Assembly (NCBI GenBank): GCA_950295325.1
Contig: OX485807.1
Span: 23,281,666-23,345,665 of the forward strand
Direction of reading: 5' to 3'
From: Polytrichum commune
Lineage: Eukaryota > Streptophyta > Polytrichopsida > Polytrichales > Polytrichaceae
DNA length: 64,000 bases
In this document: positions 4,833 through 41,589 of the stretch, one piece after another
Layout: every line of letters begins with the position of its first letter
How positions within the stretch are numbered: the first letter of the stretch is position 1
Translations under genes and position numbers: made by a program
The notes under the pieces: generated by a model
What the model saw: only the letters and a program-made list of their open reading frames with translations
Told to the model about the DNA's origin: nothing
The model's database searches: none

Positions 4833-4860
4833 AACACTATATTCGTTAATTGGAGACTTT
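4833..4860 (+). repeat. Left terminal inverted repeat of outer element
   Basis: Begins AACACTATATTCGTTAA and matches the reverse complement of 41562-41589 with one mismatch. The first 17 bases are identical to the terminal repeat of the inner element. Confidence 0.85.
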
Positions 4861-5084
4861 GGAAAGTCTCAAAATAAATTGGACCCGTAGTTTCGGATGT
4901 GAATATTGTGAACGTAGCGAACATGGGGAACATGGGGAACAATGGCAACATAATGTTTTAAAGATCCATATGTGATGAATATATATGTTTCTAAATATAG
5001 TAATTATTCAGTTGATAATCAAAACTATGCCAACACAATATTCCAATGACACGAAATTGCAAATTAGCATCTGCAATATAATTA

Positions 5085-5357
5085 TATAGTTTAGGGTCCA
5101 CATCCGTAAAAACACAGACATAAAAAACATTTGGATTCCACATCCGTAAATCAATGCATCCATGCAATATAATTATATAGTTTAGGGTCCATATCCGTAA
5201 TAACACAAACATAAAAAACATTTGGATTCCACATCCGTAAATCAATGCATCCATGCAATATAATTATATAGTTTAGGGTCCATATCCGTAATAACACAAA
5301 CATAAAAAAACATTTGGATTCCACATCCGTAAATCAATGCATCCATGCAATATAATT
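5085..5357. repeat. Three 91-bp subterminal tandem repeats
   Basis: A unit of about 91 bp starts near 5090, 5181 and 5272. Each carries 'catccgtaa' twice, which is close to a half-site of the outer element's palindrome. They lie between the left terminus and the 3' end of the transposase gene. The inner element has a comparable tandem block just inside its left end (9782-10066). Subterminal arrays of half-sites are where transposase or accessory proteins bind in EnSpm-like elements, so a transposition role is possible but inferred. Confidence 0.75.
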
Positions 5358-5472
5358 GTAATCTATAAAATTGCTATAAAATGTGTCTAATATAGTATTC
5401 GACCCCAATGTCATATATTTTATGAAAAACCAATACACATTCAAATATCTTTGGTCCAAACCTACGTCAATA

Positions 5473-8400
5473 TCATTCACCATCTTCATCTTCTGCTTCA
5501 TTTCCATTCTCGACATTGTTTTCTGCAGCAGCAATACGTGCCAAGTTGTCTTTGGCAAAATCTATATGTTTTTGGGGGATGGTCATTGTTTCAGTTTTGG
5601 AACCTTTGCGTGGTTTCCAAGCACAAAGTATGGTATCCATGTTTATCCATATTGGTTCGTATGCTGAGTCCATTGTCCATTTGAAACCTTTTTTCGTATC
5701 CCACCCTAAATATGTGCGGAGCACATTTTGATCTTTGGTGCTTGGACGGCAATATTCCACCTCAATTTGACGAAAATTTGGGCTAGTTGGAACAAAATTT
5801 GGTGATGACAATGCTTTCACCAACCAAATCGGTTTAGGATGTTCCTCATCTCCAGGACGTACGAGGACCATATAACCTTCGTAGCAATCAATAGCCACAC
5901 GAAATGATGGAGCCGGGCGATTACGAGCAGGGCCAACATAATGGTCGTCCGCCGCGAACTCTTCACGAACGTCCCCATTGTTGAAGAACATGGCCTCAGA
6001 TTCCACGATTGTCACTCGGCTTTGTGGCCAAAAACCTTGTGTCAAACATGATGGTCTATCGTCTTCGGGTGCTAGCAACGCTGAGCGGATGCGATCCCAA
6101 TACGCAATCAATGGTTCGTGGGTATCCCGAACACGTCTTGTGATGTCTTCCTCGCACAAATCTTTCCAGTACTCGATGAATCCAGATATACCTTTGATGA
6201 TTTCTGGTCCATTCCTCATGGGGTTGGGTTTGCAGGGCTTCGGCTCCCCATCAGGTAGCATACATTTGCCATCTTCGTTTTGGCGCCATACGAGTATCCC
6301 TTCCTCTGGGCCCCAATTCGGGGAGGTACACAAAACTTTGAATTGCATGGCCGGCAGACCATCATCACGCATATAGAATCGGAATTGTTGAGCCTTGGTA
6401 TGGCCCACTAAGCGGTCACCTCCCTTAAGAATGAATGGTTTGATAAACGATTTGAAATCGGGCACTTCTTCAATCAAATGCGGGATGACTGGCACATTAT
6501 CCAAATCCATGTACGATTTCATGAGAAGAGGAATTGTGGGAAAATCCTCCTCGTGCAACTTCATACTCCAACGTCCGAATGAAGCGTCAATGTCATCGTG
6601 CGTGTGGCCAACCATCAAAAAAGACACAAACACTTCTTTGAAAATGCCCTTGGCTACGAGCAATGACCAAAAACAAAATACGTATCGACATTTGTTGTCC
6701 TTGGCACAATTGTCAAGTTGCACGTGTAGAGTTGGAGGCAAAGGTTTAGCAAGAACGGGTTGTTCAGGCGGTTCTTGCAGTGAAGATAGGCAAACCTCCT
6801 TCCCCTCTAGCACAGCCTCATAAATCGGTGTTGTTCCACATCCAACAAAAAGAGCACGAGAGGATGATGTGGGCGGACTCTCAAGATCTCGTAGAAGTTT
6901 TGCAAAAGACCCTACGGTATGATTGGCGTCGCCAGGATAGAAATCCAAGCCATAATGTGCATATTTCACGTCCACATGACCATGTGCGATCATACCTGCA
7001 TTTAGCCACACAAATCGTATATATGAATGAAATTCAAAAATTTCCCCAAGCAAGCAAAAAAATGTACACTTACGGACGTACATCCGTAAATCTTAACAAT
7101 GAGTATGTGGGCGCGCAAAAAATAAATGTGAAAACCAACAAACATGTGACAGATATTGGAAGCTTGAAATATCCATCTGTAGCCTTTATTTTCCGCACAT
7201 AACAAGGGCACGCCGTCTTTGCATGGTCCATTTTGTCATGAATGATTGTCAAAACCTCATTCGGCCTCATTATCGATAATGCGCGATTCTTGTAGTAGTC
7301 TTGACGGTGTGCCTCCTGGTTGTTGACATGCTCAATGTATTTCAGTTGATGTCGGTTGTGGGACTCAGTCCCAATGGGATGTGCATCTCGAAGGCCTTTA
7401 TATTTCTCACAAGCAGAACACCTGGCAAACTTATCCCCAGGTCTCTTCGTAATGTATTCTGCGAATTGTTGATTCTTGATCACACTCAATTTTGACAACG
7501 AAATCGGCCCACATCCAGCCTTTTCGCCAACTTCATTAACATCCATAAGTATGTTCTTCCATTTTGTCCCTGTAGGCAAAACCATCTGAACAACATTTTC
7601 CCCCGACGGCAGAGTTCGCGTCTTGTGTGGCATCGCATCTGCCAATGGCATAATGATGGTTGATAGTGTTGCAGCCGCTTGGAGTGTTGCCTCCTTAGGC
7701 TTCTTTGTGCCAGAGTTGCCATGGAACCGAGAACGGCGTCCTTGCATCGAGTAGTTCCGGAACCTATAAAAATCTGCCTTTGAAACTGCATGTATAATGT
7801 ACCATGCCTTGCAACATATCTCGACATTTTCCAAGGTCACAACCTTACGACCTTCGACATCAAGATGCATGTTGCGATGGACTTCAAGTTTCTTTGCAGA
7901 TCGCATACGAAAGTCCGCGAGCCACATCTCTTGTCTCAAAGATTTGATCTTGTCACGGGGAAATAGTTGGCAACATCTCTTTGCACAACAATCCTTTGTT
8001 GCTACGGACCTAATAGATGCATCTCCCAATGTTTGATCTCGACGACGTTGCGTGGGTTCACGAGGCAAACGAACGGAATCATATTTACGCCGACCCATTC
8101 TAGGGCGCATTGTGGAAAACAATGCCGATTGCATTTGATCAAAACGGCGGGAATGATTCCTCAAGCTGACACCATCATGAAGAACACTGCGCAACGGCCA
8201 TCGACGAAGAGAGAATCTCCAACCAGAAGGCACTTCCAACGGATGTAAAGAATTCAAAATGCACACCCCCACATCTTCTTCCCCAAGGGGATTTGCATCA
8301 ATACAATCCGTAGGATTCGAGTTCCGACAAACACCATCGGCCACGGGGACGCCACATCCATTGAGGAAGACGACATCAAGATCAATCCACTGCTCCCGGG

Positions 8401-8548
8401 AATAACCCTCACATGGTGGGAGGAATTCATCCTCTACATTGGCGACACCAATTGTAGTTTCTTGTTCCACGACAACTTCAAACTCGCTAGCATAGCTTGA
8501 TGCTTCCGACGAAAAATCAACCCCACTATCACTGACGTTGGAATCCAT
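5473..8548 (-). CDS. Transposase-like protein, outer element (DUF7869-type)
   Basis: Two exons, 8548-7144 and 6995-5473, join in phase 1 to give about 975 residues with no stop. I chose ATG 8548 because a splice acceptor (CTCTTGTAG) lies five bases before it, as in the inner paralogue. The N-terminal half has Cys/His-rich stretches (ATKDCC..RCCQLFPRDK and CSACEK). The second half holds the motifs HDKMDHAK, LDNCAKDN and VGHTHDDID, which match the plant and animal family I know as DUF7869. The acidic residues in these three motifs are candidates for a DDD/E catalytic triad of an RNase H-like transposase (inference). A C-terminal region with RPGDE...PIWL and AWKPRK is shared with the inner copy. 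The intron (6996-7143) contains one outer-type palindrome. The 5' splice site is T|GTTTGT, slightly unusual. It probably acts in the nucleus on the element ends. Confidence 0.8.
7071..7090. repeat. Outer-type palindrome in transposase intron
   Basis: TTACGGACGTACATCCGTAA lies within the single coding-region intron of the outer transposase. It is a diverged centre of the ACGGAC...GTCCGT family. Confidence 0.8.
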
Positions 8549-9600: not shown

Positions 9601-9627
9601 AGCACACTACAAGGAGAGTGCAACCCA
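9601..9627 (+). repeat. Short duplicate of outer leader sequence at the insertion point
   Basis: AGCACACTACAAGGAGAG plus GTGCAACCCA here is nearly repeated at about 27147-27171 (agcacactacaagagcgcaaccca) on the far side of the inner element. The distal copy lies inside the likely 5' untranslated exon of the outer transposase. It may be an older local duplication, or an imprint of the insertion. Confidence 0.55.
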
Positions 9628-9630
9628 AAT

Positions 9631-9658
9631 AACACTATATTCGTTAAATTGAGACTTT
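9631..9658 (+). repeat. Left terminal inverted repeat of inner element
   Basis: This is an exact reverse complement of 27020-27047. The preceding AAAT (9627-9630) recurs at 27048-27051 as the presumed 4-bp target duplication. Confidence 0.87.
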
Positions 9659-9781
9659 TTGGGCATTTTGAGACATTCACATAAATAAGAACAAGGATAA
9701 ATGGAACACATATTGGAGAAAGTTGTAAGATGCGAACACTTTGAAGCAGGTGTTTAGACCAAGAACCCCATAAATAACTCA

Positions 9782-10066
9782 TATTTGTGATGGTTTAGGG
9801 TGGGCAATCCAAATCTTAGACCACATTTAAGGGGAAACCTTAAAACATTCATATTATTGCACACAAAATATTAGAGCTTGTATGAATATGGTTTAGGTAG
9901 GGCAATCCAAACCATAGATCTTATTGAAGGGTTAATATGTTAACCAATATAATATTGCATACAAAATATTCCAAACTCATATTTGTGATGGTTTAGGTAG
10001 GGCAATCCAAACCTTAGACCATATGGAAGGGGAAATCATGTCTAACTTGTATTATTGCAAAAAAAA
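9782..10066. repeat. Degenerate subterminal tandem repeats of inner element
   Basis: Three diverged units about 98 bp apart share 'tggtttagg', 'gggcaatccaaa' and 'acaaaatatt'. GGGCAATCCAAA resembles a worn half of the inner palindrome. The block mirrors the 91-bp subterminal array at the outer element's transposase end, though here it lies at the cargo end. Confidence 0.6.
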
Positions 10067-10178
10067 ACATACAAAGTGTGGCATGTAAAATGCATATCAT
10101 GCTAACACCACACATGCATTGGATAGTGCGACCCAAAATGTTCTTGCCTATGGCCCAAAACCCTACGCCTACTATGGC

Positions 10179-10496
10179 CTATCTAGCCTCGGATACTACC
10201 TCTTTTTCTTTTGCTTTTTTTTCTTTTGCCTCTTTTTCTTTTGCCTCTTTTTCTTTTGCTGCAGCTTCTTTTGCTCGCATTGCTTCAACATTCCTGAAAA
10301 TCTCCGCCCCGCGACTATAGCCATTCTTGGGGTGAACGCCATCAATAACACATTTTGTATTCCGTCGGCCGCCCGAATTATACGACGAAGAATTTGAATA
10401 CGATGAAGTGGATTGTCTTGCATTTCTGGTCATGGAGTAGAAACGCTCCAACTCGATGGACGCACTAGACCGCATAGGTTTACGGGTGGGAGCAAC
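10179..10496 (-). CDS. Inner cargo gene, exon 6: basic tail with SRG-EIFR-EAM motif
   Basis: The exon runs from the acceptor GTTGCAG (before 10496) to the stop at 10179, 318 nt (105 residues). It begins VAPTRKP and contains a serine/tyrosine-rich stretch. It then has YSRGAEIFRNVEAMRAKE, conserved in the outer copy at 41160-41205 as FSRGPEIFRAMEAMKAKE. It ends in a KEKEAKEKEA-type charged helix that is probably coiled coil. It joins exon 5 in phase 0. A DNA- or partner-binding tail is possible, but no known domain was recognised. Confidence 0.6.
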   Translation of the reverse strand, partial: VAPTRKPMRSSASIELERFYSMTRNARQSTSSYSNSSSYNSGGRRNTKCVIDGVHPKNGYSRGAEIFRNVEAMRAKEAAAKEKEAKEKEAKEKKAKEKEVVSEAR

Positions 10497-10526
10497 CTGC
10501 AACGCGTCAACGCAAGAACACATGTG

Positions 10527-10548
10527 TTAGTTTAGGGAGGAAGACCCA
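10527..10548. repeat. Worn inner-type palindrome in intron 5
   Basis: 'gtttgggtcttcctccctaaac' keeps the left half-site and a weak right half. The homologous outer intron at 40864-40886 also holds a worn site, so a palindrome at this place probably predates the split of the two elements. Confidence 0.45.
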
Positions 10549-10634
10549 AACGTGTCACACGATCATTTTTTAAGTGCAAAATGATTGTAATGCGCGGATA
10601 ACCATGTTTTTTGGGGGGGTTGGGGGGGGTTCAC

Positions 10635-10988
10635 CTTGTCACCGGGGGCGTTCCCGTCGGAGTTGGCGAGGAGGGGCAAGGCATCCCGCAAAGGAATAGG
10701 AAGGGTTCCACTCTTCGTAGGCCGAGCGTCCATCCGCAGCCGCCGTTGAGGTGTACTACTGCCGCCGGGCCGAGAGGGGGATGTCCGGACGCATTTGCGA
10801 TTTATGCCTTTGAACGGTGACGGGGACGCAGATCGCCGGAAGATTTGCTTGGGTGGGGGGCTATCGACGACGCCGGCGTCAAGAGGCTCCTTGGAGTAGT
10901 CGATGGTTGACGCGGCGTCGTAAACGGTCTCGTAGAAGAAGCTCCCCAAGTCTGACTCGCTGACGACGTCAATCGAGGGCTCCAAACG
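10635..10988 (-). CDS. Inner cargo gene, exon 5: S/T-P-rich segment
   Basis: The exon is 354 nt (118 codons), between the acceptor GGCTCCAG and the donor GACAAG|GTGAAC. The conserved core is DYSK followed by GVVDSPPPK, also found in the outer copy (40540-40590). The rest is rich in SP/TP and basic residues, as expected of a disordered, phosphorylated tail. No start codon is evident. Its phase-0 acceptor fits splicing from exon 3 (skipping the HAD exon) as well as an independent gene. Confidence 0.55.
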
Positions 10989-11131
10989 CTGGAGCCAAAA
11001 TTGGAACAAAACAAAACCCAAGGAAAAGGGGGGAGATAGAGCGCGTGAAAATCAAGATACATATGAAGCGTAAATTACACAAAATGGGCAGGCGCATATA
11101 CACACACGCACATACAAACACACGTACTGTC

Positions 11132-11935
11132 TCAAATGAGCTTGTTAAATTTCGCGTGAGATAACAACTCTCTGTACAAATGGTCTCGTGGATCCAAGTA
11201 TCTCTCGCCTATGGGATTATTCCTAACAAAATTGTTTACGGGAAGTCCGCTTCCCCAGAGCGCCTGGAGGTATTTACTAAGGTCTAACAAAAATCGGTCC
11301 CGGACCTTCTCGACCGTCCAGGTAGGGCACACTATGAAGTTGGCCGTCGGGTTCAACATGTTCTTTGCGGCGCTGTCGTCCACTATGAGCGTGTTCTCGC
11401 GGGTGGGGCGGACGTCGTAGGGGACGCCTATCAAGGACGGTCGCTGGTCCCAAAAAATGGGCTTCAAGACCTTGAGGTATTGGGGGGAAGCGGGGTTGTT
11501 TGGTTTTTTGACGACTTTGCCGTCCTGTGTGTACAATATTCTACAGGCTTCCTGTGCTAGGACCATGCAGGGGGGCTCGATGCCCTTGAAGATGAACTCC
11601 ACGACCGCATTGGTGTTCTCGGCCGTCATGGAGCTCCACACGACCACCCACCATCGTTGTTGGGCGATCTGGAGGAAGGTCCGAAGCCACGGGCGGAGGT
11701 GAACTAGCTTGCTCTTTATGAACGTGGGCGGCCCGTCGTAATTAGCATCCTCGGGCTTGCAAAAGGGCACTGTGGGGGCCCTAGGGCAATGAACGCACTG
11801 CACGAGGACACCGTTCAGGTCTAACACCAGGAATCGTTTCTTCGGCAGCGGGGGCGGGGCGGGGCGGGTAAAACCGGGGGGGCCGCCGTGCTGCCCTCTG
11901 CGCTCCTTGGAGAAGAGCGTCGGGGAGCCGCTACG
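11132..11935 (-). CDS. Inner cargo gene, exon 4: FCP1-like HAD domain
   Basis: The exon runs from the acceptor AGCATAG (before 11935) to the stop at 11132, 267 codons plus stop, in phase 0 with exon 3. A proline-rich lead (about 35 residues) precedes KKRFLVLDLNGVL. Later motifs are VVWSSM, QYLKVLK and LIVDDSAAKNML, the HAD motifs I-IV in the order seen in FCP1/NIF-type phosphatases. Plant members of this family commonly carry DLNG in place of DxDxT, so the second acidic residue is Asn here as well. Catalysis with Asn is uncertain. The exon ends FNKLI, like the outer copy. Confidence 0.75.
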   Translation of the reverse strand, partial: RSGSPTLFSKERRGQHGGPPGFTRPAPPPLPKKRFLVLDLNGVLVQCVHCPRAPTVPFCKPEDANYDGPPTFIKSKLVHLRPWLRTFLQIAQQRWWVVVWSSMTAENTNAVVEFIFKGIEPPCMVLAQEACRILYTQDGKVVKKPNNPASPQYLKVLKPIFWDQRPSLIGVPYDVRPTRENTLIVDDSAAKNMLNPTANFIVCPTWTVEKVRDRFLLDLSKYLQALWGSGLPVNNFVRNNPIGERYLDPRDHLYRELLSHAKFNKLI

Positions 11936-12422
11936 CTATGCTCCGAGCCCTGCGGATACGAGCGAGAGAAAACGGTGGGCGACTTATGTCATGCTATGTC
12001 CAAACGAAGCATTAAGGAAACGAGTGTTCTTGGTGCAAACACAAAACCAATTGATTCATTTTGGAGGGGGGTGCAACAAGGGATACAAGAGAGACAAGAG
12101 CATACAAAATACATTCAAACACAATATACAAGTATATAGGAGTCAAAAATGGTGATTGTATTGTATACAATGCTCTATGTACATTTTGATTGGGGGGAGC
12201 CGCGTTGAACGATGCGTTCAAACTAGCCTACTTCTAAATCTAAGAAAATTTGAAGAGACGGGCCGCCGTGATGAAGACTTCGTCGCAAGCCGGGGTAGGT
12301 GGACGAACGAATGGTCGGGGGGATGTGGCGAAGGGCGCGAGTGCCGGGGGGGGGGGGGGCGACGTGTGTGTGAGTTTAGGGTAGCTAGGGGACACGACCA
12401 AGGCAAGAAGACAAAGACCCAT

Positions 12423-13396
12423 TGTCGCGCACCTCTCCATAAGGAGTGCCCGAAACACCATGGGCACAAGGGGGACCCCGGAGTGACACCCGGGACTTGT
12501 GGCGCCATTGGTGAGAGGGCCCAAGTGATCCTAGTGTGGGTGAGGGCCCCGGGCGTTGGGAACGCCTCCCACCCACGGAGACTAGGATGCACAAGGGTAA
12601 GGCCATAAGCTATGCGTAGCTCATGGCGTGGTGATTCTAGAAAGCTCAAGAACGCCTCAATCGGAGGTGTGAGCTAGGAGTTATGGCCATTTGAGTGGGG
12701 CGCTGTCCCGGGACAGCGCCCTGGTACAGCAGTGCCTGGGAGTGATTCCCGGGACTGCCAAGGTTCAAACAGGCATAACTTCCTCAAGACTTGCTCCAAT
12801 GGAGCAAGTGAGGAGTGCATCGGCATCTACGTGAAGCGTAGATGAACATGGATTGGTTGGTTGTTATGATCAGACATCATACAAGGAAGTTATGATGGTC
12901 TGAAGCTGCTGGGGGGGTTCTAGGCCCAGCAGCTGAAGGAAAATGTCCACTTGGCCCCAACTCTTGGTAGAGAGACAAGAGGTTGGTTGACGGTGGGGTA
13001 GGGGCCCCGCGTGAAGTCCTAGAGGCTTATATGGGTGAGGTGGTGTGGCCTCACCCACCCGAGGCCGAACGGCACGGCCTCCATGGGCATTGGCCCATTG
13101 TGAGGCCATAGTTGCCTAGTATGGTTCGGGTTGTTGTAGTGTTGCTCCGGCAACGCGATGATCAACATAGGATTGGACTTCCATGGATGGAAGTCCACAT
13201 TGGGGAAATGGGTTACCGACTAAGGGGTGAGTCCCGAAAGCAAAGTAGGAGGGTTGGTTCCCTCCTATGAACTATTGGTCCGGGGTAAGAGGAGCTATCC
13301 ATTAGCATGGCGGAATGCGAAGGGTTAGCGACTCGTAACCTTTGCTAGAATGGAAAATTGGCAAGATTATTAAGGGACCTAGCAAGGGTTGCGACA
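12423..13396. mobile_element. Solo-LTR-like insert, 974 bp
   Basis: Its ends are TGTCGC...GCGACA, and the 5-bp direct repeat CCCAT flanks it at 12418-12422 and 13397-13401. The GC-rich body has no retrotransposon genes. It includes a perfect 24-bp palindrome (12698-12721, GGGCGCTGTCCC and its complement) followed by an imperfect one (about 12730-12760). TG...CA ends with a 5-bp duplication are typical of LTRs, and without internal genes a solo LTR is the best reading. Open frames here are GC artefacts. Confidence 0.7.
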
Positions 13397-13405
13397 CCCA
13401 TGGAG

Positions 13406-13425
13406 TTTGGGTCGACCGACCCAAA
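13406..13425. repeat. Inner-type palindrome in intron 3
   Basis: Perfect TTTGGGTCG/CGACCCAAA halves around AC, five bases beyond the right target duplication of the LTR-like insert. Confidence 0.85.
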
Positions 13426-13447
13426 CTGAGTGGGGTCAGTGCATTAC

Positions 13448-14917
13448 CTCGCCTTGGTCGTGCCTTGACGACGTTGATGCCGGCATCGCCTGCGCTGCCC
13501 CACCTCTGTCACCGCCGCCTCCGACGACGACGTCAGCCGCAACCTGCTCCTGCAAAGGCTGACTGTCAGGCCTTTGTCCCAACCCAACCTCCGCATGCGC
13601 ATCATGCATTGGTTCATCGACTGGGTTAGGAGTAGAGGTATCACCAGGCCCTTGCGGGCCTTCAACGTCTAACATGCCCTCGTCCACCGGGCTCTGGTCG
13701 GGGACGGGGTTTGGGTCGGCCGACCCAAACCCTGCTGCTTGGCGAGCGTCGCTCTGGGACGCTGCAACGTCGGCACTGTTTGGGTCGGACGACCCAAACA
13801 TGTGGGGGTCGTCCCGCTGGTGGTGTGGGGGCGAGAGGATGGGAGGCCGGAGCGGCGGGGGCGCCAACGAGCTGGACGCACCGGGGACGCGCCAAAGGTT
13901 GGGGTCGTCCACATGCTGGACGGGCGCGTAAGGACGGGCGTGCGGCTGCAGCAACTGTGCGAAGCTGAAGGAATGCTGCAGCGTGGGCCGCGGGGCGATA
14001 TCCTGTGGCGGGAAGCCTGTGGGCAAGTGCGGGAATGAACTCGGGGGAGCCATCACCAATCCCTGCGCCAGCATGCCCTGGATCACTTGCGTGATGAGCT
14101 CCGCTTGGGACGGAGTTTGGGCCATCGCCCTTTGCCGCTCCTGCTCCAACAGGAGAGCCCTCAACTCCGCCACTTCGTTGCGGACCGAGGGTTCCTCGGC
14201 AGCAGCCCTCTGCAGTCGCACACGCTGCTCCTCGTCTCGGAGCATTTTTGCGTTCGCCTCCTCCACGGTGAGGACCTCCGGTTTCACCCTCACATTCCCG
14301 GCGAACGCTCTGGGGGAGGCAGGATCCGACCTCAGCCTCTTGGCGAGTTCCATGTCGTCCTCGTCCTCTGAGCTTATTGCGATTGTCTCCTCCACCGCAT
14401 AGTCCCCGTACAGCTTCTTCCCCTTCATCCTTCTCCGCTCCCTGAAGGTGGCCGTCGCGTCCCTCGAGTACATGTCCTTCGCGTCGTCCACCGTCAACGC
14501 GGGCACCAGCCTGCTTTGCGGCGTGGCAGCCCGCATGGCCTTCTTCCGCTGAGGGGCCTCGGATTCTTGAGTGAATCCTGTTGCCCCTTCCTCCACCTCC
14601 CCCTCCACTTTCTCTGCTTCCTCCTCCTCCTCCTCCCCCCCCTCCTCCCCAACCTCGCCACCTGCTCCCATCGACGGATTGCCCGGATGCAACCCGATGA
14701 GCGGCTTTGGCAATTGAACGGGGGCACGCATGGCGAATTCACCCGGGTTGATTCGCCTCGCCATATCCAAAGGATTCTCGCCCCCCTCGACTATCTCTTC
14801 AACGTAGGATCCGGGTATCCAGTCAAGGATGTCCATTTTCTTGGCCAGTGCCTTCTGGGTCCTGTAAAATTGAACATCGGCATCCTCCACATAGGAGTAG
14901 ATGTTCAACCCAGACAT
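13448..14917 (-). CDS. Inner cargo gene, exon 3: acidic/coiled-coil region with palindrome-encoded peptides
   Basis: The exon is 1470 nt (490 codons), between the acceptor TTGTGCAG|ATG and the donor GGCGAG|GTAATG. Its first 40 residues (SGLNIYSYVEDADVQFYR) complete the methyltransferase-like fold begun in exon 2. It continues with a Glu-rich stretch, the motif ETIAISSEDEDD (a SUMO-interaction-type sequence), the sumoylation-type VKPE, a coiled coil (AEEPSVRNEVAELRALLLEQ) and a Pro/Gln-rich tail. Two inner-type palindromes (13710-13729 and 13779-13798) are read in frame as FGSADPNP and FGSSDPN. The outer exon 3 has the same length and motif order. Confidence 0.7.
13710..13798. repeat. Two inner-type palindromes inside exon 3
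   Basis: Perfect 20-bp sites at 13710-13729 and 13779-13798 are translated as FGSxDPN. The outer gene has its own palindrome at the corresponding place (39115-39137), read as FADARPEP. Confidence 0.85.
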
Positions 14918-15001
14918 CTGCACAATCCAAATCAATAGTATTAGTATAAACTAATGAAGAGTAAGGAAAAATGACATCCAAAATAAAATAAGAATAGTTA
15001 G

Positions 15002-15163
15002 TTTGGGTCGAGCGACCCAAACTAGGGCATGCACAGTTTGGGTCGAGCGACCCAAACTATGGGCATACCCAGTTTGGGTCGCTCGACCCAAACTAGGGCG
15101 TGCACAGTTTGGGTCGCTCGACCCAAACTAGGGGCAAACACAATTTGGATCGCTCGACCCAAA
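15002..15163. repeat. Five inner-type palindromes in intron 2-3
   Basis: Sites lie at 15002, 15037, 15073, 15108 and (one mismatch) 15144, about 35 bp apart. They fill much of the intron between exon 2 (ends 15199) and exon 3 (starts 14917). The two central bases vary (AG or CT), so the halves rather than the centre are conserved. Confidence 0.88.
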
Positions 15164-15198
15164 CCGTCCGTATAGGGCTTTCAGGGTTCTTTGCTTAC

Positions 15199-16530
15199 CA
15201 TTGCTGCAAAAATCGGTTTGGATCCCCCGAAAACGTTGAAGATGCAGTCCCCTCTCTTGGTGAGGGTCCTCATCATCCGCAGGTAGAACTCCATGCGCAG
15301 CTCATCCGCGGGGTAGTTGGCGTACTTCGCCTCGTCATACAAGCTCCTGCTGGTACCCAACCCTTTTTGGACTTGGAAGAGCTTTTCCATCCTGGCTATA
15401 GGATGGTTGGGCACCTTAAGTAGATCAGCTTTGTACACGAAGTACAAGCACAACACGTTGACGATCTTCGTCTTCTTGTCTTTCAACGTGTTGTACGCCC
15501 CCTCCGCCGGTGCAGCAACGTAGTGAGATTTCGAGACGGCATACTCCGGCTGCAATTTGCGCACGATCTCGTAAACCTGCTCTGCCCTCCTGTCCTCGAC
15601 AATCCAGAGCCAGACGTCGACCTCCCTGAATTTGGGGCTGGCGTAGTCCACGAACTTCGACAAGAAAGCATCGTAAAAAGGGGTGCTCATAGTCCCCTCG
15701 AATGAGGCTCCAGGGATATTCCTGAAGTCTATCATTCCGAAGGGGAAGCGGTCCCCGGCTTTAGTCCTGATCGCCTTCCTGGACTCAGAGCCCGGCCAAC
15801 CTTGGATCCTGAGAGGCTCGACGGTGACCATGTTGAATTGCGCATCGCCTTCGAAACTGACGATCTTCTTCTCCTTTATGAAGTTGGAGAAGGCCCGCGC
15901 TGAGTGTTCGGGAAGCACCCGGTTCCTCCCCCCCTTCACGAGCTTGGATCTGAGGAAGTCGTCTCCCGCCTCCCTCATGAGTGCCGCCATGGACGCACTG
16001 GTGAACTTATATTCGGCTTTGAAGGCCCTCCAGTGCGCCTCGTCGACCTCTCCGTCCACGATGAGCTTCTTCTCGGGCACCAGCTTGTGCAGCTCTTGGA
16101 CGATGGTCGTCTTCTTCTTCCTGTTCTCCGTCCATTCCTTCATGGTGTAGCATGAAGGGACGAAGATCTTGGGTTTGGTGAAGACGATCTTGGGGTGGAC
16201 CCAGCATCTCTTCGCCGTCGTCTCCACGTGTAGGATGTGGGACGCCGCTTTTCCCATCTCTGTCTCGGAAAGACCTTGAAGCGCTCTGAAGAACTCCCTC
16301 ACCAGAGGCTTCATTTGCTTGAAGCGCGTAGTCTGGTTGAAGAGCATGCCGGTGTCGGGGTCCATAAGGTCCCCCGTCTCGTGTTTTTCAAAAACACTCC
16401 TCCATTTTCCCCACACGGAGTCGGACGTGGTGATCAAATATATTTCTCCTCGCAACTCGTTATATTTTTTTTGCTTGTGGCTAGCATTATCTATCGAGGA
16501 GAATTTATTGATCATCTGATATTTGAAGTC
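15199..16530 (-). CDS. Inner cargo gene, exon 2: methyltransferase-like region
   Basis: The exon is 1332 nt (444 codons) from the acceptor CGTGTGCAG to the donor GCAATG|GTAAGC, open throughout. The C-terminal part reads GDCIFNVFGGSKPIFAAM and continues in exon 3 as MSGLNIYSYVEDAD. This matches the order of motif I (FxGSG...AA) and the motif II acidic residue in permuted N4/N6-type DNA methyltransferases. Upstream, FPFGMIDFRNIPG stands where DPPY/W is expected, followed by VDVWLWIVED. The catalytic motif is therefore degenerate. The order ParB-like (exon 1) then methyltransferase-like recalls phage and bacterial ParB-methylase fusions. Family assignment is inference; the outer copy shares all these points. 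Confidence 0.6.
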
Positions 16531-16593
16531 CTGCACACGTAGCCAACAATTCATGTTAGACAACATCTCATGGAATAACAAATGAAACAGCAG

Positions 16594-16727
16594 TTTGGGT
16601 CGATCGACCCAAACTATAAACCTGGTAAAGACAACAAAGCCATGCAAGAGTTTGGGTCGAGCGACCCAAACTATGAATTTGTTGAAGACACTAAAACAAT
16701 GAAAGAGTTTGGGTCGGTCGACCCAAA
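16594..16727. repeat. Three inner-type palindromes in intron 1-2
   Basis: Perfect sites at 16594, 16651 and 16708, exactly 57 bp apart, lie within the intron 16736-16531 that separates exon 1 from exon 2. Confidence 0.88.
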
Positions 16728-16736
16728 CATACTCAC

Positions 16737-18062
16737 CTCCCATTTGGGGTTCTTATCTTTAGCATTCTCCCTTTCCCTGGGAGGCCTGCCATAAAACTCC
16801 CACACCTCCCACGAGGCCATGATGTTTCTGATTCACGATGCCTGATAGGCCCTCTTTTTGTTCCCCATGTTGAAGAACCTGGAGATGTCGCTGAGGACCG
16901 TCTCGTTGTCCGACCAAACCACCAAAGCCTTCCAAACTTTTAGTTTCTCCTTCTGGTTGTTCGGGTCGTTCCACTCGGTCATCAGCTGGATTTTTTTTTA
17001 TGCCTCCACACTGTGCTGCCCGTCAATCAACTAGAAGTCTCCTTTGGAGATTGTCGGCCACATATCAGGCGTCGGCATTCTCTTCAACCCTTGTGGCATG
17101 ACAACAATCGTCTGCCTGTCGTCCTTGAACTGCCCGCCCAAGATTTGAGCGACCATCCAGTCGACGTAGGCGTCCTCCTTGGCTCGGACACATTTCTCGG
17201 GTGGCGCAAGGTGGCACTGCGCAATGTTGACCTCGAACTTGAAGTCCCTGCCCATGAAGAAGCAGTGCAGGCATTTTGTTTCGAAGTTGGTGTTTATTTT
17301 TTGTATTTCGCCTGCATCCACCTCCTGGCCAGGCTTCGGCATCCGGAGCTCCGGGGAAACAGGCTCGTCAGTCATCACCGATGACTCTCTTCCCCTTTTG
17401 GAAGGGGTCGTTTGACGGCTTGTTGATGGCGTTGGCGTCTCGCTATCAGCCGGCGTTGTTGTAGTACTTGTCCGTCTCGACTCCACAGGGACCGCCCGCG
17501 GTTTCCTCACAGTTTGTGGTCTTGAGGACCCTGCGCCTTCTTCCGTCGGTGCCTTCCACCTCACAGGCTGTTGTGTCTTGGGTTTGCTTTGCAGCGCCTT
17601 GTTTAGAACCGTGATGGCCTGTTTTAACTTCGTGAACCTGCTCGCAACCTTCGTGTTGGTTACACTGCCATCTATGAATATGGCCTCCGGTTGTATGGTT
17701 TCAGGGTCGACGCAGGTCTCCTTGGCGTACAGGGGGTCGAAGGGCTCGGAGAACTGGTGCATGAACATGTGGACGTTCTGCACGGCGGAGTTCTCCAGTA
17801 TGACGTCTACATAGTCCCCGAGAGACTGGACAGACGCAACCTCCCATCCCGTCAGCGTTGCCCAGGTGTGCTGCTCGTGGGTCCCCACCTTCACCACGAA
17901 TAGCAGCTTGAACATGGATGCCTTCACCACCTGAACGGACCATGCCAGAACGACGCCATCTTTTGGGACGTAAGAATCGTCCTGTGGAGTTTCATACTCC
18001 TGCCAAAGGTGGTCTGGCGCGAGCATGAACCACCTTTCACCTGGTCTCTTTTTAGGGGCCAT
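16737..18062 (-). pseudogene. Inner cargo gene, exon 1: ParB-like region, broken by three stops
   Basis: The exon is 1326 nt in one frame from ATG 18062, directly after the acceptor GGGTTGCAG, to the donor ATGGGAG|GTGAGT. It holds an N-terminal domain of about 130 residues, an S/T/P/K-rich linker, then a domain ending LIDGQHSVEA...WKALVVWSD...ISRFFNMGNK. The DGQH motif and following layout resemble ParB/DGQHR-type domains. Compared with the intact outer copy, in-frame stops occur at 17031-17033 (TAG), 16998-17000 (TAA, in an A-run) and 16833-16835 (TGA, where the outer copy has Trp). No frameshift is needed, so the decay looks recent. Confidence 0.7.
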
Positions 18063-19060
18063 CTGCAACCCAAGAAATCGAAACTGTGAGTTTCGGTCGA
18101 TCGACCCAAAGTATTGCAATGTGCATTTAACATTTGGAGGATTAACCCAAACATTACTTAATTTTCAAAGTCGTTTTAAAAGATCTTTTAGATTTTAAAT
18201 TATGGTTTAGGTGGTCACCCTGCAATGTTTGAGTCGAGCGACCCAAACATGATGAGGCTGCAAATTTATGTAGTTTAACCCATTCATTTCAGACTGCAAT
18301 GTTTGGGTCGAACGACCCAAACATTTACTTAATTTTCAAAATTCTTTTATATTTTACAATGTGTTTTAGTTCTTCTCCGTGTAATGTTTGGGTCGAGTGA
18401 CCCAAACATGATGAGGCTGCAAATTTAGGTAGCTCAACCCATTCATTTCAGACTGCAATGTTTGGGTCGAACGACCCAAACATTTACTTCATTTTCAAAG
18501 TTCTTTTATATTTTACAATGTGGTTTGTTCTTCTCCCTGTAATGTTTGGGTCGAGCAACCCAAACATGATGAGGCTGCAAGTTTAGGAAGCTCAACCCAT
18601 TCATTTTAGACTGCAATGTTTGGGTCGAACGACCCAAACATTTACTTCATTTTCAAAGTTCTTTTATATTTTACAATGTGGTTTACTTCTTCTCCCTGTA
18701 ATGTTTGGGTCGAGCGACCCAAACATAATGAGGCTCCAATGTTTGGGTCGCTCGACCCAAACAAGAGGTTGCAATGTTTGGGTCGCTCGACCCAAACAAG
18801 ACGCTGCAATGTTTGGGTCGCTCGACCCAAACAAGACGCTGCAATGTTTGGGTCGATCGACCCAAACATTTAGTTCATTTTAGGCTGCAATTCAAATATT
18901 TATTATATTTTAATATGAGTTTGGGTCGTCTCCCCAAACTACTGTGTTTCCAGATGCATGTTTAATGCTTCGGCAACATATACAATGCTTATGCATTGTA
19001 TATGTAACAGGAACCTAAAGGGAATGATGCAAATTGTGTGCACTGATGCAAATTGCTTAC
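18063..19060 (-). other. Inner cargo gene, 5' leader intron
   Basis: The donor AGACAAG|GTAAGC (intron starts 19060) and the acceptor TTGCAG|ATG put the intron end exactly at the start codon. The outer gene has the same arrangement (33895-34808). It holds the palindrome cluster 18091-18866. Confidence 0.65.
18091..18866. repeat. Cluster of twelve inner-type palindromes in the leader intron
   Basis: Sites start at 18091, 18228, 18302, 18387, 18461, 18545, 18619, 18704, 18742, 18777, 18812 and 18847. The upstream four are spaced 35 bp. The middle part consists of about 158-bp repeats carrying two sites each. Some carry single changes (18091, 18228, 18387, 18545). Open frames on both strands here are by-products of the repeats. 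Confidence 0.88.
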
Positions 19061-27047: not shown

Positions 27048-27125
27048 AAATACAAATTGTGTACCCTAATGGGCTCAGGACTTCGGGTTTAGGGTATAAT
27101 AGGTCCATTGCAATAGGATCTTTAC

Positions 27126-34150: not shown

Positions 34151-34754
34151 TTTACGGACGCGCGTCCGTAAACTTCAGGGAACCCTGGGAATATGCATCG
34201 CACTATGTGTGAACAGTTTACGGACGCACGTCCGTAAATTGTAGATATATTTAAAAACATGAATGATAAGTTTACGGACGTGCGTCCGTAAACTTGAAAT
34301 ATCTAAATACACTAAATGTGGTACATGATACATGTGCAGAGTTTACGGACGCGCGTCCGTAAACTAGGCAGCAAAAGCTATGAAAATCTCAGAGTATAAT
34401 ACATGTCATGGGTTTTCAAAATAAGTTCTACAAAATATACAAGTTCTACACAACAAAAATGAACTTATTTTCCAAGAATTTACGGACGCACGTCCGTAAA
34501 TTAAGGCTACATAATAATAAAAAACATATTATATTCATGGAATATAGAAATAGAAACTTTTGGATGATATATGTACAGAGTTTACGGACGCGCGTCCGTA
34601 AACTCTGCACATATATCATGTATGTGATTTCTTTTTATAAGATATCTCAAGTTTACGGACATGCGTCCGTAAATTTGACATGTACTATAACATAATACAT
34701 AACCACATTATATAGGAAAGGGTACGCAAAGGTTTACGACCGCGCGTTCGTAAG
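34151..34754. repeat. Eight outer-type palindromes in the cargo leader intron
   Basis: Sites start at 34151, 34217, 34271, 34342, 34479, 34581, 34652 and (worn) 34733. All lie in the intron 33895-34808, which ends at the ATG. Centre bases vary (CGCG, CGCA, GTGC, ATGC) while ACGGAC and GTCCGT are kept. Confidence 0.88.
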
Positions 34755-34808: not shown

Positions 34809-36095
34809 ATGGAATCTACAAAAAGACCCGCTATTGATTTATTCGCAGAGCTTGTCCATCCTCCGCTTCCAAAAGCCATCAAAGACATAAGCCACAACGA
34901 CCATTACAAGCCACGCGAAGACATTGTAGATAACTGGACAGTTATTGTAGAAAAAAATGAAAAGGATATATTTGTCCTTAGATTTGCCTATCAAATAAAA
35001 GCAGATATACATGAATCCGAGAAGTGGATGAAGGTAAAAAACTGGACAGTAGAGTGTGCGGTAGCCCAAGGTGATTATGTTGTCATTGACCTTGAAAAGA
35101 AAAATGATAGGATCACATTCATTTTGCACGAGTTGTACCATCCGTTCAACAAAAATGAATGTGAAAATGCCAGCCCAGATGCGTTTTGCTTCAATTTACA
35201 GAATGAATTCCAAGACTATGCATGCAATGCACCCTGGACGGGTAAACGGCTTGGACGTCTCTTGAACAATGTGACAAGAGTAAATGGGGCATTACTGGAA
35301 GCCAAGAAAGGAAAGGCGAAAAAACCAGTTCCTGAACGACCTAAACGTGTTCCTAAACACATGCCAGAAGCCTCGAGACCCTCACAGAGTGGGGCATCAA
35401 GAGGGAGCAAGCAGACTAGTAAACGCTCCCACTCACAGATGGAGTCGTCAGGGCTAACAGAGGGTCCAGATGTGAGCTCTACTCTTACTGTCGCACCACT
35501 CCTGAAGAAAGGACAACGCCCTGACGCCGAACTTTCCACAAAGATTTTCCAAGAGTTCGACGAGAAGACAAAGGGCTGCTGGCCACTTGGAAGATATTTC
35601 ACGTTTGATGTGGATGTCTACAAATGCCACAAGGGCACGGAGAGTATGAATACTCGTGCCAAAGAAGAGACCGGGGTGTGGTGGCAAATGAATAACATTA
35701 TGAACAACCCCAAATTTGATAAGCAAACCATATGTGTGACACCAAAGGATCCTGTGGTTGAAGTCACAGCGCAAAACTGGCCAATTCTCAAAGATGGAGA
35801 GTTCTACATAGTCGACGGCCAACATAGTGTGATGGCTGCAAAAGCTCTCCTAGAGGACGATGAGTGGAAGAGCCCTTTGAAAGAGACAATCCGATACTGG
35901 AAGGCATTCGTCGTCCATTCCAAAGACTCGAACCAGCTCATCGCAATATCTGCCTTCATGAACCAAGGGAATAAAGTGAGGCAGTTCGAGGCTTCATGGG
36001 CTGCCAACATCGTGGCTGGAAGGACCTTGTGGGTAGAGCACGATTGTCCCCCAAAAGAGAGGGAGAATGCAGTCATCAAGAATCCCAAATGGCAG
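34809..36095 (+). CDS. Outer cargo gene, exon 1: ParB-like region
   Basis: ATG directly follows TTTGCAG; 1287 nt (429 codons) to the donor TGGCAG|GTATGT, open throughout. Residues 1 to about 130 form a domain shared with the inner copy. A K/S/P-rich linker follows, then a domain with FTFDVDVYKCHKG, YIVDGQHSVMAAKALL (about residues 333-348), WKAFVVHSKD and AFMNQGNK. A DGQH(R/S) motif followed by an AA-K-L helix and an N-rich end is the layout of ParB/DGQHR-type domains. In phage proteins such domains are often fused ahead of DNA methylases, which is what exon 2 suggests here. Function is inferred. Confidence 0.65.
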
Positions 36096-36212: not shown

Positions 36213-37532
36213 ACATTCAGCAATGCCATCTTGACAAAGTTCTCCAGCATTGACTTGAAGACAAGCGGCATGAAGACGGTGCAGGAGCTGAAGGGGGAAC
36301 TTAAGCTCATCACCGCCACAGAAGAGACATGGGCAATTTGGTTGCGCCTATTCGATGCCCACAACAACGGAGACCTTATCAATCCGGATGCAGAAAACAC
36401 GTACAAGAGCGACTCGAAGGTTAAGGTGCCACCTATCCTGAGAGAGTTCTTTCGTCCCCTCCAAGGATTGCTCGACTCCGAACTGTACAGAGCGGCACAA
36501 CACATCCTATTGGAGACTCCGAGGAGGACACTGCCCTACCCCAAAATCTTCCTGAAGCGGCCGAAGCACATGAAGCCTTCCACGTACCACATTAAGGAAT
36601 GGTGCGAATACAGGAAGAAGAAGACCATGGCTATAAGGGAAATTAGCAAGCTGTTGCCCTCCCACAACCTCACTGATACAGATGGTGAAATAATGTGGGA
36701 AAACTGGAGGACGCTCAAGGAGGAATATCACATCAATGGGGTCTCCATGCGATCATTGATAAGAGGCGCATCTCCCTTCCTAGCCCAAAGATCTAGGAGG
36801 AACGAGAAGAAAGGGTCTATCGACGAAAGAGAGACGGCGTTGTACGTCCATTTCCTTGACAGAAAAAAGAAAGCAAAATTCGAAGGGGTCGCAAGATTCT
36901 GCACTGTTACAACGGCCTTGAAGTTTGGCACATGGGACACACATGCTTCAAGAGCCTCTGTGAGAGATGACCCCCGGGGTTGTCCGTTCGCACTATTTGA
37001 TTTCCGTGCATTTCCCGGATCTTGGAGACAAAACGCTAGCGGGACCGCTTTCTATGACAACTTCTTCAAGGCCTTCAAGAGCTATCGGTCGCCTGCCCTC
37101 TTCGAGCCAAATGTGTGGCTCTGGATCGTAGATCAAGAGAGGTCCGCATCGGTCGTCCAGCTTTACACATCGACGATGAACCTCCAATACGATCTTTACC
37201 ACAGCACATACATCCCCGCGAAGACGGAAGGGATCAGTGTTATTGAAGAGGCAAGAGGGGCGAAGCAGGTCGGGGCTTTGGCACTTTATTTCTTGACACA
37301 CAAGTCTTCACCAAGTGGGCGGATGCCTATCAAAGCGCAGAACGTGTTCAAGAAAGTATACTCGTTGCCACCACCACACCCCAAGGAGCTTGTCGCGGAG
37401 ACTATGTATGCAATCTACCCGGCGTACGAGCTCCGAATGGATTTTTATATTGGAGTCTTGAAGGCTGTGACTGTGATGAGTGAAACAGTTTACAACGTCT
37501 TCGGAGGCACCAAATTTGTTTATGCGGCATTG
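36213..37532 (+). CDS. Outer cargo gene, exon 2: methyltransferase-like region
   Basis: 1320 nt (440 codons), phase 0 at both ends, open. After an N-terminal helical part (FSSIDLKTSG, REFFRPLQGL), the C-terminal half has CPFALFDFRAFPG and VWLWIVDQER. It ends TVYNVFGGTKFVYAAL, continuing in exon 3 as MLGLQVNSFVEARD. NVFGG...AAL...VEA corresponds to motif I and motif II of permuted N4/N6-type DNA methyltransferases, and DFRAFP occupies the DPPY position. The SAM-binding Gly pair is kept, but the catalytic tetrapeptide is not. Binding without methylation is therefore possible. Overall similarity to the inner copy is clear along the full exon. Confidence 0.6.
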
Positions 37533-39249: not shown

Positions 39250-39539
39250 TTCCTTGTCTGCCAACTTCGTGGCGTGTGCATATTGTCGAGTTCGATGCTC
39301 GGCTTCGCCCGGCGGGTGGATGCAATTTTGCCAGCATAGATTCAATTAGTTTTAGGGGAGACCTTTTGTGACAATGTAAATTATTCGCGAAATGTATTAA
39401 ACCAATCACATTAATACAAAATTTTTGAACTGCGTATTAGTATTTTTTTTGCCTTATATTTGTTTGTTGAGTTTGTGCATGCTTGTCAATTGGTTTTCAT
39501 GGGTAGTACCATTCACCTAGATAGTATTTTCCATCACAG

Positions 39540-40307
39540 GGTCCGTCGGAGATATGTCGCAACCCCGCTGAAAGACCAAGCCGGCCCATGAGGAAACCGT
39601 TCATAATATTTGACCTCAATGGGGTGCTTTGTCATTCCATGCATATCTCCAATAGTGCGTCGAAGGGTCCCTTCCGTAGTCCACAAGACATGGATTACGG
39701 CGGACAGTTCGATACTCTCATTAACAAGAAGGTTGTACGGGCCCGGCCGGGGTTGAGGTGCTTCCTTCGTGATGTCCTTGGCTTGGCCCATGTCATCATC
39801 TGGAGCTCTATGCTTATGGACAACACGAAGGCCATCGTCGGTTTCCTTTTCCGAGAACTCGCAATGCCATGCTTGCTTCTCGGTCAAGAACACTGCGATG
39901 ACCTTTATGACCGTAATGGCAACATTGTACCCAAGGTCGGAGGAGGCCGAGGGCCTCAATTCCTAAAGGTACTGAGGAAGAACCTTTGGGTGGGCGTCCC
40001 TATGTTGGAGGGGGTGCCCCACGGTTGTTGGCCCACCCCGGAGAACACGCTCCTCATTGACGACAGCCCGGCAAAGAGTATTCTCAATCCCCTGGGCAGT
40101 TGCATATTCCCGGATCCTTGGGAGAGTGATAGAAATGACAACTTTCTAGAGAATGAACTAGGACCCTACATTAGGAGGCTTGCCTATCACCCCGGAAGTG
40201 TCCCGGATTTTGTCCTCTCCAACCCCATTGGCAATAGGCCTCTAGGCCCAAGAGATGAGGAATTTAGGAGGTTGTACGGCTATGCCAAACTCAATAAATT
40301 AATATGA
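39540..40307 (+). CDS. Outer cargo gene, exon 4: FCP1-like HAD domain
   Basis: The exon runs from the acceptor CATCACAG to the stop TGA (255 codons plus stop), in phase 0 with exon 3. PFIIFDLNGVLCHS (motif I, Asn in the second acidic position), VIIWSSM (motif II), PQFLKVLRK (motif III Lys) and LLIDDSPAKSILNP (motif IV) define an FCP1/NIF-type HAD domain. The closest pattern I know is the plant DLNG-type FCP1-like family, so capture of a plant gene is plausible. An internal ATG before RKPF could allow separate translation. The exon ends LNKLI as in the inner copy. Confidence 0.78.
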   Translation, partial: GPSEICRNPAERPSRPMRKPFIIFDLNGVLCHSMHISNSASKGPFRSPQDMDYGGQFDTLINKKVVRARPGLRCFLRDVLGLAHVIIWSSMLMDNTKAIVGFLFRELAMPCLLLGQEHCDDLYDRNGNIVPKVGGGRGPQFLKVLRKNLWVGVPMLEGVPHGCWPTPENTLLIDDSPAKSILNPLGSCIFPDPWESDRNDNFLENELGPYIRRLAYHPGSVPDFVLSNPIGNRPLGPRDEEFRRLYGYAKLNKLI

Positions 40308-40395: not shown

Positions 40396-40791
40396 TTGCC
40401 TCACCAAGGATCCCAAAGTCTCGTCCATGGCATGTGTGCATCTAAACCAGGCCCCAGCTCCCCTTCCATCGGTGTGACCGACATTTCAATGCCTTCACTA
40501 TTTCAATTTTCTGCCGTCGATGCCGCCTCTGCTGTTGATTACTCCAAAGACTCGGGGTTTGAAGACGGAGTTGTCGATAGCCCTCCTCCAAAGGTTGCAA
40601 AACTCAATTACGCTCCATCTCCATCTCCATCTCCCCTCCGCAATGAGAAGCACGTTCGAAACCCACGGTCGACCAGACACCTTTGTATGGATGAACCCCA
40701 AATTGGTGTCCCGGCGTTTACGAGCGTCCCTGTTGTGCTTGTGGCCCCCCTCGATGTCGCAGAAGCTCAAACCACCGCCCCGCAGGCCAAG
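40396..40791 (+). CDS. Outer cargo gene, exon 5: S/T-P-rich segment
   Basis: 396 nt (132 codons) between the acceptor TGTCTTAG and the donor GGCCAAG|GTGCCC. The conserved core is AASAVDYSKD...GVVDSPPPK, then SPSPSPL and a Pro/Thr-rich end. It lacks an obvious start at its 5' edge and is in phase 0 with exon 3, so an alternative C-terminus that skips the HAD exon is possible. Confidence 0.55.
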
Positions 40792-40932
40792 GTGCCCAAT
40801 TATTGGCATTCTCAAGTTTTTTCTTCATGATTTCCGTGGATTAGTGCATTTTATATTATTGGGTTTTTCGGACTTCCATCCGTAACTTATACTAACCCAC
40901 ATCATTATATGTATTTATGGTCATTGTTTCAG

Positions 40933-41280
40933 ACCCCAATACACATGAATGTGGGCCGTTCATCCTCGACTTCGTCATTGGATAGGCGAACACTGAAGAC
41001 TGCTTCTTGCGAGTCTGATCGTTGTTTGGCCCTACGGAAGAGTGAAAGACGTTCATTTTCCCAATCGCATTCGTATTCCACTTATTCGGTAGGGGGTCGG
41101 CAAATATGGGCAAATGGCACATATTCGGGGTCGACAAATACACAAGGTTTTAGCCGCGGACCCGAGATCTTTAGAGCCATGGAGGCCATGAAAGCAAAAG
41201 AACGTGAAACGGCCATAAATGCTAATAATAGTATTGCAAAAGCAAAAGTAGTGAGTCGTAATCATGATCCGAACGTATAG
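40933..41280 (+). CDS. Outer cargo gene, exon 6: tail with SRG-EIFR-EAM motif
   Basis: 348 nt (115 codons plus stop), acceptor TTGTTTCAG. A Ser/Arg/Tyr-rich part leads to FSRGPEIFRAMEAMKAKERE, the best conserved stretch of this small protein in both elements, then an Asn/Ala/Lys helix. No known domain was recognised. The intron before it holds a worn palindrome at about 40864-40886. Confidence 0.6.
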   Translation, partial: TPIHMNVGRSSSTSSLDRRTLKTASCESDRCLALRKSERRSFSQSHSYSTYSVGGRQIWANGTYSGSTNTQGFSRGPEIFRAMEAMKAKERETAINANNSIAKAKVVSRNHDPNV

Positions 41281-41561
41281 GCTATATTAACATACATGTA
41301 GTTGTGGAATTATGTTTCTAGGACTTTCGCCTAATATTGGATATTCCACTTGTATTTTGTACTTCAACCCCTATTCAATAAATATGATATTGATTTTCCA
41401 TATGCAAATGTTTTCATATATCCTATTTTCTTATTTTTATGTGTGGTTCCATGCATTTGAGTCTCTTATTTGTTTCCAAAATTGGGAACATAGCATATTT
41501 TTAGTGTTTTCCTTCCTACAAATGTGAAAGCCACGTCCTTAAATAGTCTCAAAATCAACAA
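41281..41561. other. Right subterminal region of outer element
   Basis: T-rich sequence between the last cargo exon and the right terminus. The frame 41312-41527 is hydrophobic by composition only. Confidence 0.5.
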
Positions 41562-41589
41562 AAAGTCTCCAATTACCGAATATAGTGTT
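41562..41589 (-). repeat. Right terminal inverted repeat of outer element
   Basis: Reverse complement of 4833-4860 with one mismatch. AAGT (41590-41593) follows. Confidence 0.85.

Follow-up and report, generated by a model that had tools for sequence, protein, structure and literature searches.

Nested giant transposons in the moss Polytrichum commune with a DUF7869 gene and a divergent partner gene

Examining a 64,000-nucleotide stretch of the Polytrichum commune genome (assembly GCA_950295325.1, contig OX485807.1, positions 23,281,666 to 23,345,665 of the forward strand; this whole stretch is called the window, and positions count from its first letter), we found that an inner giant mobile element is inserted within a second, outer one. 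We read the pair as members of a young, high-copy group of giant cut-and-paste transposons that make 4-bp duplications and carry a core pair of divergent genes, of which gene A, with the domain DUF7869, would be the transposase and gene B a factor for self-recognition and regulation, the group lying in the Sola superfamily or beside it; the probability we attach to this reading is about two in three (0.68). Gene A would cut and join at the terminal repeats, with joining staggered by 4 bp, and gene B would bind the palindromes of its own lineage around the shared divergent promoter region and in introns, and would control or protect expression of the element. Read in this way, the group exemplifies giant plant-type transposons, young and present in many copies, in which the second gene appears to be conserved, not captured, and the unnamed domain DUF7869 is tied to an exact 4-bp-duplication signature of transposition and to an empty site.

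Boundaries of the nested pair and spread of its family

The two elements, with their terminal inverted repeats (TIRs) and flanking duplications, lie in the window as follows.

4833..41589, outer transposon, with TIRs and AAGT duplication; its gene A end is the left one
4829..4832, AAGT duplication of the outer element, left
41590..41593, AAGT duplication of the outer element, right
4833..4860, plus strand, left TIR of the outer element
41562..41589, minus strand, right TIR of the outer element
9631..27047, inner transposon, 17,417 bp, with TIRs and AAAT duplication; its gene A end is the right one
9627..9630, AAAT duplication of the inner element, left
27048..27051, AAAT duplication of the inner element, right
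9631..9658, plus strand, left TIR of the inner element
27020..27047, minus strand, right TIR of the inner element

The outer element measures 19,336 bp once the insert is subtracted, and it reads AAGT, AACACTATATTCG ... CGAATATAGTGTT, AAGT. The terminal repeats are alike over 28 bp with minor differences between the two elements, and the ends vary slightly by subfamily, the outer right end being CGGTAATTGGAGAC. Exact matches to the terminal 13-mer number four in the window, and all four are element ends; with up to two mismatches there are 10 matches against 1.45 expected, a number reached in none of 100 shuffles.

When the flanks of the inner element are joined, they align without a gap to other outer-type copies at eight places (at least 98% identity over at least 498 bases), and at the best of these uninterrupted sites, C7:26046942-26047441, 498 of 500 bases agree with no gap and an identical junction. 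This empty site fixes both ends of the inner element and its AAAT duplication. When other inner-type copies were compared, the best alignment to each of the five with the highest scores ended at 27047 (within 2 bp), and outer-type homology begins at 4832-4833 in two of the three best-scoring copies, the best alignment of the third beginning inside the element. A preliminary description had proposed two nested giant transposons of one superfamily with these ends and duplications; ends, duplications and empty site agree with that proposal, to which we add the small subfamily differences in the ends, and homology running past the ends, which would have spoken against it, was absent from the sampled copies.

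The family was traced through 408 Mb of genome sequence in 64 contigs. Exact AACACTATATTCG ends occur 776 times in forward and 807 times in reverse orientation (1,583 in all), and the reversed control pattern 3 + 10 = 13 times. Extended by 12 bases of flank, of which the outermost may be any base but G, the end pattern has 1,315 matches, and end pairs were drawn from 100 listed matches, all on contig C1. Among these, 32 nearest left-right pairs lie within 60 kb, and their flanks agree over exactly 4 bases in 25 pairs (two of the left ends using one common right end) and over 5 bases in none, while shuffled end pairs gave an average of 1.2 with matching 4-bp flanks and a maximum of 5. The expectation that many copies would share these ends and 4-bp duplications is thereby borne out.

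Identity is 99.4-99.97% for the five top-scoring other copies of the inner type and 98.6-99.4% for the three top-scoring ones of the outer type, which indicates recent activity; being the best-scoring, these copies do not give the age of the whole family. For gene A itself, the best 86 of 1,863 inner-type candidates scored are all at least 97% identical to the query, and the 85 scored outer-type matches are all at least 92% identical. As a separate observation, five right ends on C1 (21854521, 21889072, 21905923, 21940698 and 21974301) have the same 12 flanking bases, AAATAAGGATAA, which suggests a segmental duplication containing an element end.

The divergent gene pair across lineages

Within the window the two elements are mirror images, gene A reading toward one end and the longer, multi-exon gene B toward the other. 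The two-gene plan of the preliminary description stands, with DUF7869 on the plus strand in the inner and the minus strand in the outer element, and the NIF exon on the minus and plus strands, respectively.

23460..26517, plus strand, inner gene A, with an intron at 24904-25030 between exon 1 (to 24903) and exon 2 (25031-26517); start codon approximate
5473..8548, minus strand, outer gene A, with an intron at 7143-6996 between exon 1 (to 7144) and exon 2 (6995-5473); start codon approximate
34809..36095, plus strand, outer gene B exon 1, carrying the DGQHS motif (ParB-like, weak)
36213..37532, plus strand, outer gene B exon 2, a domain with no assigned fold
39525..40304, plus strand, outer gene B NIF/HAD reading frame (PF03031, motif DLNGVL); exon limits approximate
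16728..18104, minus strand, inner gene B exon 1 region, with three in-frame stops (17031-17033, 16998-17000 and 16833-16835)
15181..16560, minus strand, inner gene B exon 2, approximate
11135..11935, minus strand, inner gene B NIF/HAD reading frame (PF03031)

Gene A matches DUF7869 (PF25273) with an expectation value (E) of 4.8e-43 in the inner and 7.2e-40 in the outer element. Its splice sites were read from the sequence in both elements, and that of the inner gene is supported by an uninterrupted, full-length relative of 963 residues (L062) on CADCWO010000071.1, a contig of 4,327 bp filed as uncultured Synechococcales, whose protein is 48% and 39% identical to the two inner exons. This contig in a cyanobacterial bin is possibly eukaryotic contamination; its protein had no match among plasmids, and no relatives were confirmed in the viral contigs of IMG/VR. 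A DxMD motif can be read directly in the inner, outer, lineage C, lineage D and L062 proteins (lineages C and D being more distant groups described below), and pattern matches at the fetched loci show xDN in 30 of 32 cases and GHTH[DE]D in 32 of 33. The three conserved acidic positions are as expected for a DDD transposase, and gene A is a probable one with a putative RNase H fold. In Pfam gene A is recognised as DUF7869, and no Transposase_21, KDZ or other known transposase matched at E up to 1; a gene A profile against the PDB gave only a chance match (E 0.14). No paper naming DUF7869 was found in the part of the literature covered.

All 13 C1 elements fetched at one or both ends (one known by its left end only) contain gene A, broken in several of them, and the match ends about 535 bp from the terminus in 10, about 410-440 bp in two and about 680 bp in one. 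All seven fetched at both ends have the DUF7869 gene at one end and NIF motif I at the opposite end, so the two gene sets do not always occur apart, an outcome that would have spoken against the original proposal. Genome-wide, a divergent gene B match lies within 20 kb of at least 49 of 86 inner-type gene A matches (random mean 0.4) and at least 61 of 85 outer-type matches (random mean 0.2); because the lists paired here hold top-scored matches only, these counts are lower bounds.

Searching with PF25273 revealed further gene A groups (best 150 of 1,491 candidates scored), and 14 control genomes gave no match to it. Among the more distant DUF7869 groups, lineages C and D have other termini and both keep the divergent gene pair. 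Lineage C has ends of the ATGGGG type (ATGGGGATATTAAC) and a usual length of about 25 kb, and its duplications are of 4 bp in 15 of 18 pairs and of 5 bp in none; its gene B has an NGQHT motif and a NIF domain, and a divergent gene B lies within 35 kb of 38 of its 45 gene A matches, a count picked by eye with no random control. Lineage D has AACACCGGTTTCGTTAAA ends, and its single resolved copy (C7:2065544-2077540, 12.0 kb) is flanked by a CTTC duplication (1/1). A second, slightly different terminus, AACACCCTTTTCATTAAAGG, adjoins the lineage D element at L056:361 (minus), hinting at further subfamilies. In addition, a fifth gene B group, lineage E, is found at three loci (L059-L061: C6:2457500-2467400, C2:50167500-50177400 and C2:62883000-62890000), where gene B homologues of about 25% identity carry the motif INGQH[ST]VAA; the 7-10 kb fetched at these loci hold no match to gene A.

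Gene B resembles ParB weakly, through a match to phrog_1033 at E 0.038 and the short [DN]GQH motif, which is kept in the lineages examined save for one lineage D copy. Exon 1 is open in the outer element, unlike the inner exon 1 with its three stops; its profile gave Rad50 in the PDB at E 0.28 and nothing convincing in PDB or Pfam, and a comparison with phages gave no match. Exon 2 is 19-37% identical between three lineages. For this exon a degenerate methyltransferase was suspected and dropped, Pfam and profile searches lending it no support, and the top PDB match, a covalently connected cytochrome c555 trimer (E 0.0011), was taken as chance, no single stretch of it passing. The NIF/HAD domain is present in gene B of three of the four lineages: inner (E 2.1e-15), outer (7.6e-12) and C (4.6e-11). 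The catalytic motif of NIF/HAD phosphatases is DxDx[TV], whereas motif I reads DLNG in the inner, DLNG in the outer and DVNG in the lineage C protein, that is, DxN in all three read. Thus, the NIF domain may bind rather than dephosphorylate, binding being as likely as catalysis.

Since gene B recurs opposite the DUF7869 gene in four lineages, it is probably core equipment, and the label of cargo given to it in the preliminary description does not hold up well. That gene B was captured from the host and contributes nothing to how the element lives we consider quite improbable. NIF/HAD domains are common among plant genes, and a 3.6-kb element with a proper duplication has a truncated gene A and no detectable gene B, as capture would allow; however, the same divergent gene B is found in four lineages at the exon 2 divergence given above, and chance capture four times over in one layout is unlikely.

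Palindromes private to each lineage

Each window element has its own palindrome, TTTGGGTCGnnCGACCCAAA in the inner and the TTTACGGACGCGCGTCCGTAAA type in the outer. The inner palindrome has 34 copies in the window, all within the inner element, and 9,731 occurrences genome-wide against none for its reversed control. The outer palindrome is confined to the outer element, where a strict pattern finds 12 copies and a relaxed one 15, and its half-site TCCGTAA occurs 38 times in the window, none of them in the inner element or the flanks.

18302..23245, inner central spacer, holding 24 of the 34 TTTGGGTCGnnCGACCCAAA copies
34154..34605, part of the outer spacer, where 6 of the 15 TTTACGGACGCGCGTCCGTAAA-type palindromes found by the relaxed pattern lie
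5072..5344, 91-bp tandem array at the outer left end, with six TCCGTAA half-sites

The remaining inner copies lie at 16594-16727 and 15002-15127, which are introns by the approximate exon limits, and at 13406, 13710 and 13779; the other outer copies comprise five at 8886-9530 and one each at 36116, 37582, 37631 and 39231. Full copies are found mainly in the central spacer (for the outer element, 11 of 15) and in introns, at distances above 2 kb from every end, and neither palindrome occurs in the 27 kb of window flanks. Lineages C and D have palindromes of their own, with arms around CCACGGGTG and GGTGAGGCA. A 78-79 bp tandem array in the inner spacer (22042-23275) has one palindrome per unit and, together with the array at 5072-5344, suggests that palindromes multiply by tandem duplication.

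The palindromes might instead act as folded RNA or cruciforms (in splicing or as sources of small RNA) or as transposase sites, and not as sites for gene B, an alternative that we hold to be somewhat less probable yet a serious one. In introns and spacer alike they form inverted repeats that are perfect or nearly so, and outer half-sites also occur near the outer ends; the sites of the En/Spm transposase are subterminal. Against this, only the two bases at the centre vary between constant arms and the arm sequence is private to each lineage, which fits a dimer-binding site, and in the inner element a single half-site lies less than 2 kb from an end.

A bolder proposal goes beyond the reading preferred here: a distinct superfamily of giant eukaryotic DNA transposons in which a DUF7869 transposase is obligately paired with a divergent ParB-like partner that recognises private palindromes in the promoter region and introns, such that the element would mark itself and recruit a domain like that of C-terminal domain (CTD) phosphatases to its own transcription unit, partner and palindrome diverging together. 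We regard it as speculative and rather unlikely. If gene B does bind the palindromes of its lineage, a eukaryotic transposon would have a system of self-recognition that is open to bench experiments, comparable to what has been proposed for the ParB-methyltransferase proteins of algal transposons.

Placement among known superfamilies

Comparison with published descriptions indicates that the group most likely belongs to the Sola superfamily or sits beside it. Sola elements make 4-bp duplications, have a DDD transposase and very variable termini, exceed 15 kb in some cases and are present in the moss Physcomitrella (PMC10741241), and those of Sola2 have AT-rich duplications and short TIRs (PMC3627910). 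The elements studied here likewise make 4-bp duplications (25/32, 15/18 in lineage C, 1/1 in lineage D, and the empty site), and their ends vary between groups (AACACTATATTCG, ATGGGGATATTAAC, AACACCGGTTTCG). Most Sola elements measure 2-9 kb (PMC10741241), whereas those described here reach 12-25 kb. The closest published architecture that we found is Sola1-1_Ec32 of Ectocarpus, a 21.5-kb element with a ParB-like methyltransferase protein encoded on the opposite strand (PMC12477816). It too is giant, with an accessory gene opposite the transposase strand whose ParB-like domain is proposed to bind the element's own DNA; there, however, this domain is fused to a DNA methyltransferase, while Pfam finds no methyltransferase in our gene B and a NIF/HAD domain instead. 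The earlier view that no described plant superfamily fits is thus doubtful, as published accounts of Sola agree on duplications, ends, size and occurrence in moss.

The DUF7869 transposons could nevertheless form an undescribed superfamily of their own, marked by duplications of 4 bp and by a divergent partner gene that is always present, which we judge unlikely but worth keeping in view. Pfam has the transposase only as DUF7869, the literature covered yielded no paper naming that domain, and termini range from AACAC to ATGGGG. Set against these points are the agreement of Sola in duplication length, variable ends, size range and moss occurrence, and the opposite-strand ParB-like gene of the brown-algal Sola element.

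Membership in the EnSpm/CACTA (CMCT) clade with unusual ends is highly improbable. The likeness consists in large plant DNA transposons with short TIRs and the letters CACTA near the end, and target duplications of 2-5 bp are on record for CMCT elements (PMC12730594). However, EnSpm/CACTA termini are CACTA/CACTG...TAGTG/CAGTG with 3-bp duplications, whereas here a 4-bp duplication is followed by AACAC or ATGGGG, which do not begin with CA and do not follow the 5'-CA..TG-3' pattern of most CMCT elements. CMCT transposases have C(2)C and H(3-4)H motifs in the interval from the second D to the last acid. Exon 2 of neither window element has a C(2)C motif, in none of five sequences scanned does C(2)C or H(3-4)H lie in the interval from DN to GHTH (by the acid assignment made here), and, as noted for Pfam at E up to 1, Transposase_21 and other known transposases are missing. 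Since lineage C has ATGGGG ends with an equal duplication length, we dropped the CACTA letters as a mark of the family. The exclusion of EnSpm/CACTA in the preliminary description is therefore upheld on termini, duplication length and motifs. KDZ (Zisupton) elements resemble ours in being giant and at times carrying accessory genes (PMC12477816), but they make 8-bp duplications (PMC12730594), whereas none of the 32 and none of the 18 pairs match beyond 4 bp, and Pfam gives no KDZ match.

Several observations weigh against our reading of a Sola-like group with a core gene pair. Matching duplications are missing from seven of the 32 pairs (six 24-57 kb apart and one 7.6 kb) and from three of the 18 lineage C pairs. 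No divergent gene B appears among the matches listed for 37 of 86 inner-type and 24 of 85 outer-type gene A copies, nor for 7 of 45 in lineage C. The 3.6-kb element mentioned above (C1:11508363-11511968, ATGT duplication), whose gene A lacks its N-terminal part, has no detectable gene B and no palindrome, so gene B and the palindromes may be dispensable in cis. In lineage D, the gene B motif reads VDEQH in one copy (VDGQH in the relative L045), and no NIF domain was detected in the gene B pieces. ParB did not turn up for gene B when profiles were run against Pfam and the PDB, and the RNase H fold of gene A is putative, AlphaFold models from the window exons (mean predicted local distance difference test score, pLDDT, 32) and from a 271-residue core with L062 (mean pLDDT 35) being of too low confidence to show a fold. 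The outer element has six half-sites at 240-510 bp from its left end and another about 0.7 kb from its right end, so a terminal role is possible for them. Finally, the likeness to Sola was judged from described features, and kinship of Sola transposases with gene A is putative.

Two further features of the window lie apart from the elements. A separate dispersed repeat, about 80% alike, occurs in direct and inverted orientation on both sides of the elements, at 1899-2007, 52881-53803 and 59520-59745, and a 251-residue reading frame with repeated LDLTMST motifs, possibly a host gene, lies on the minus strand at 63008-63763.

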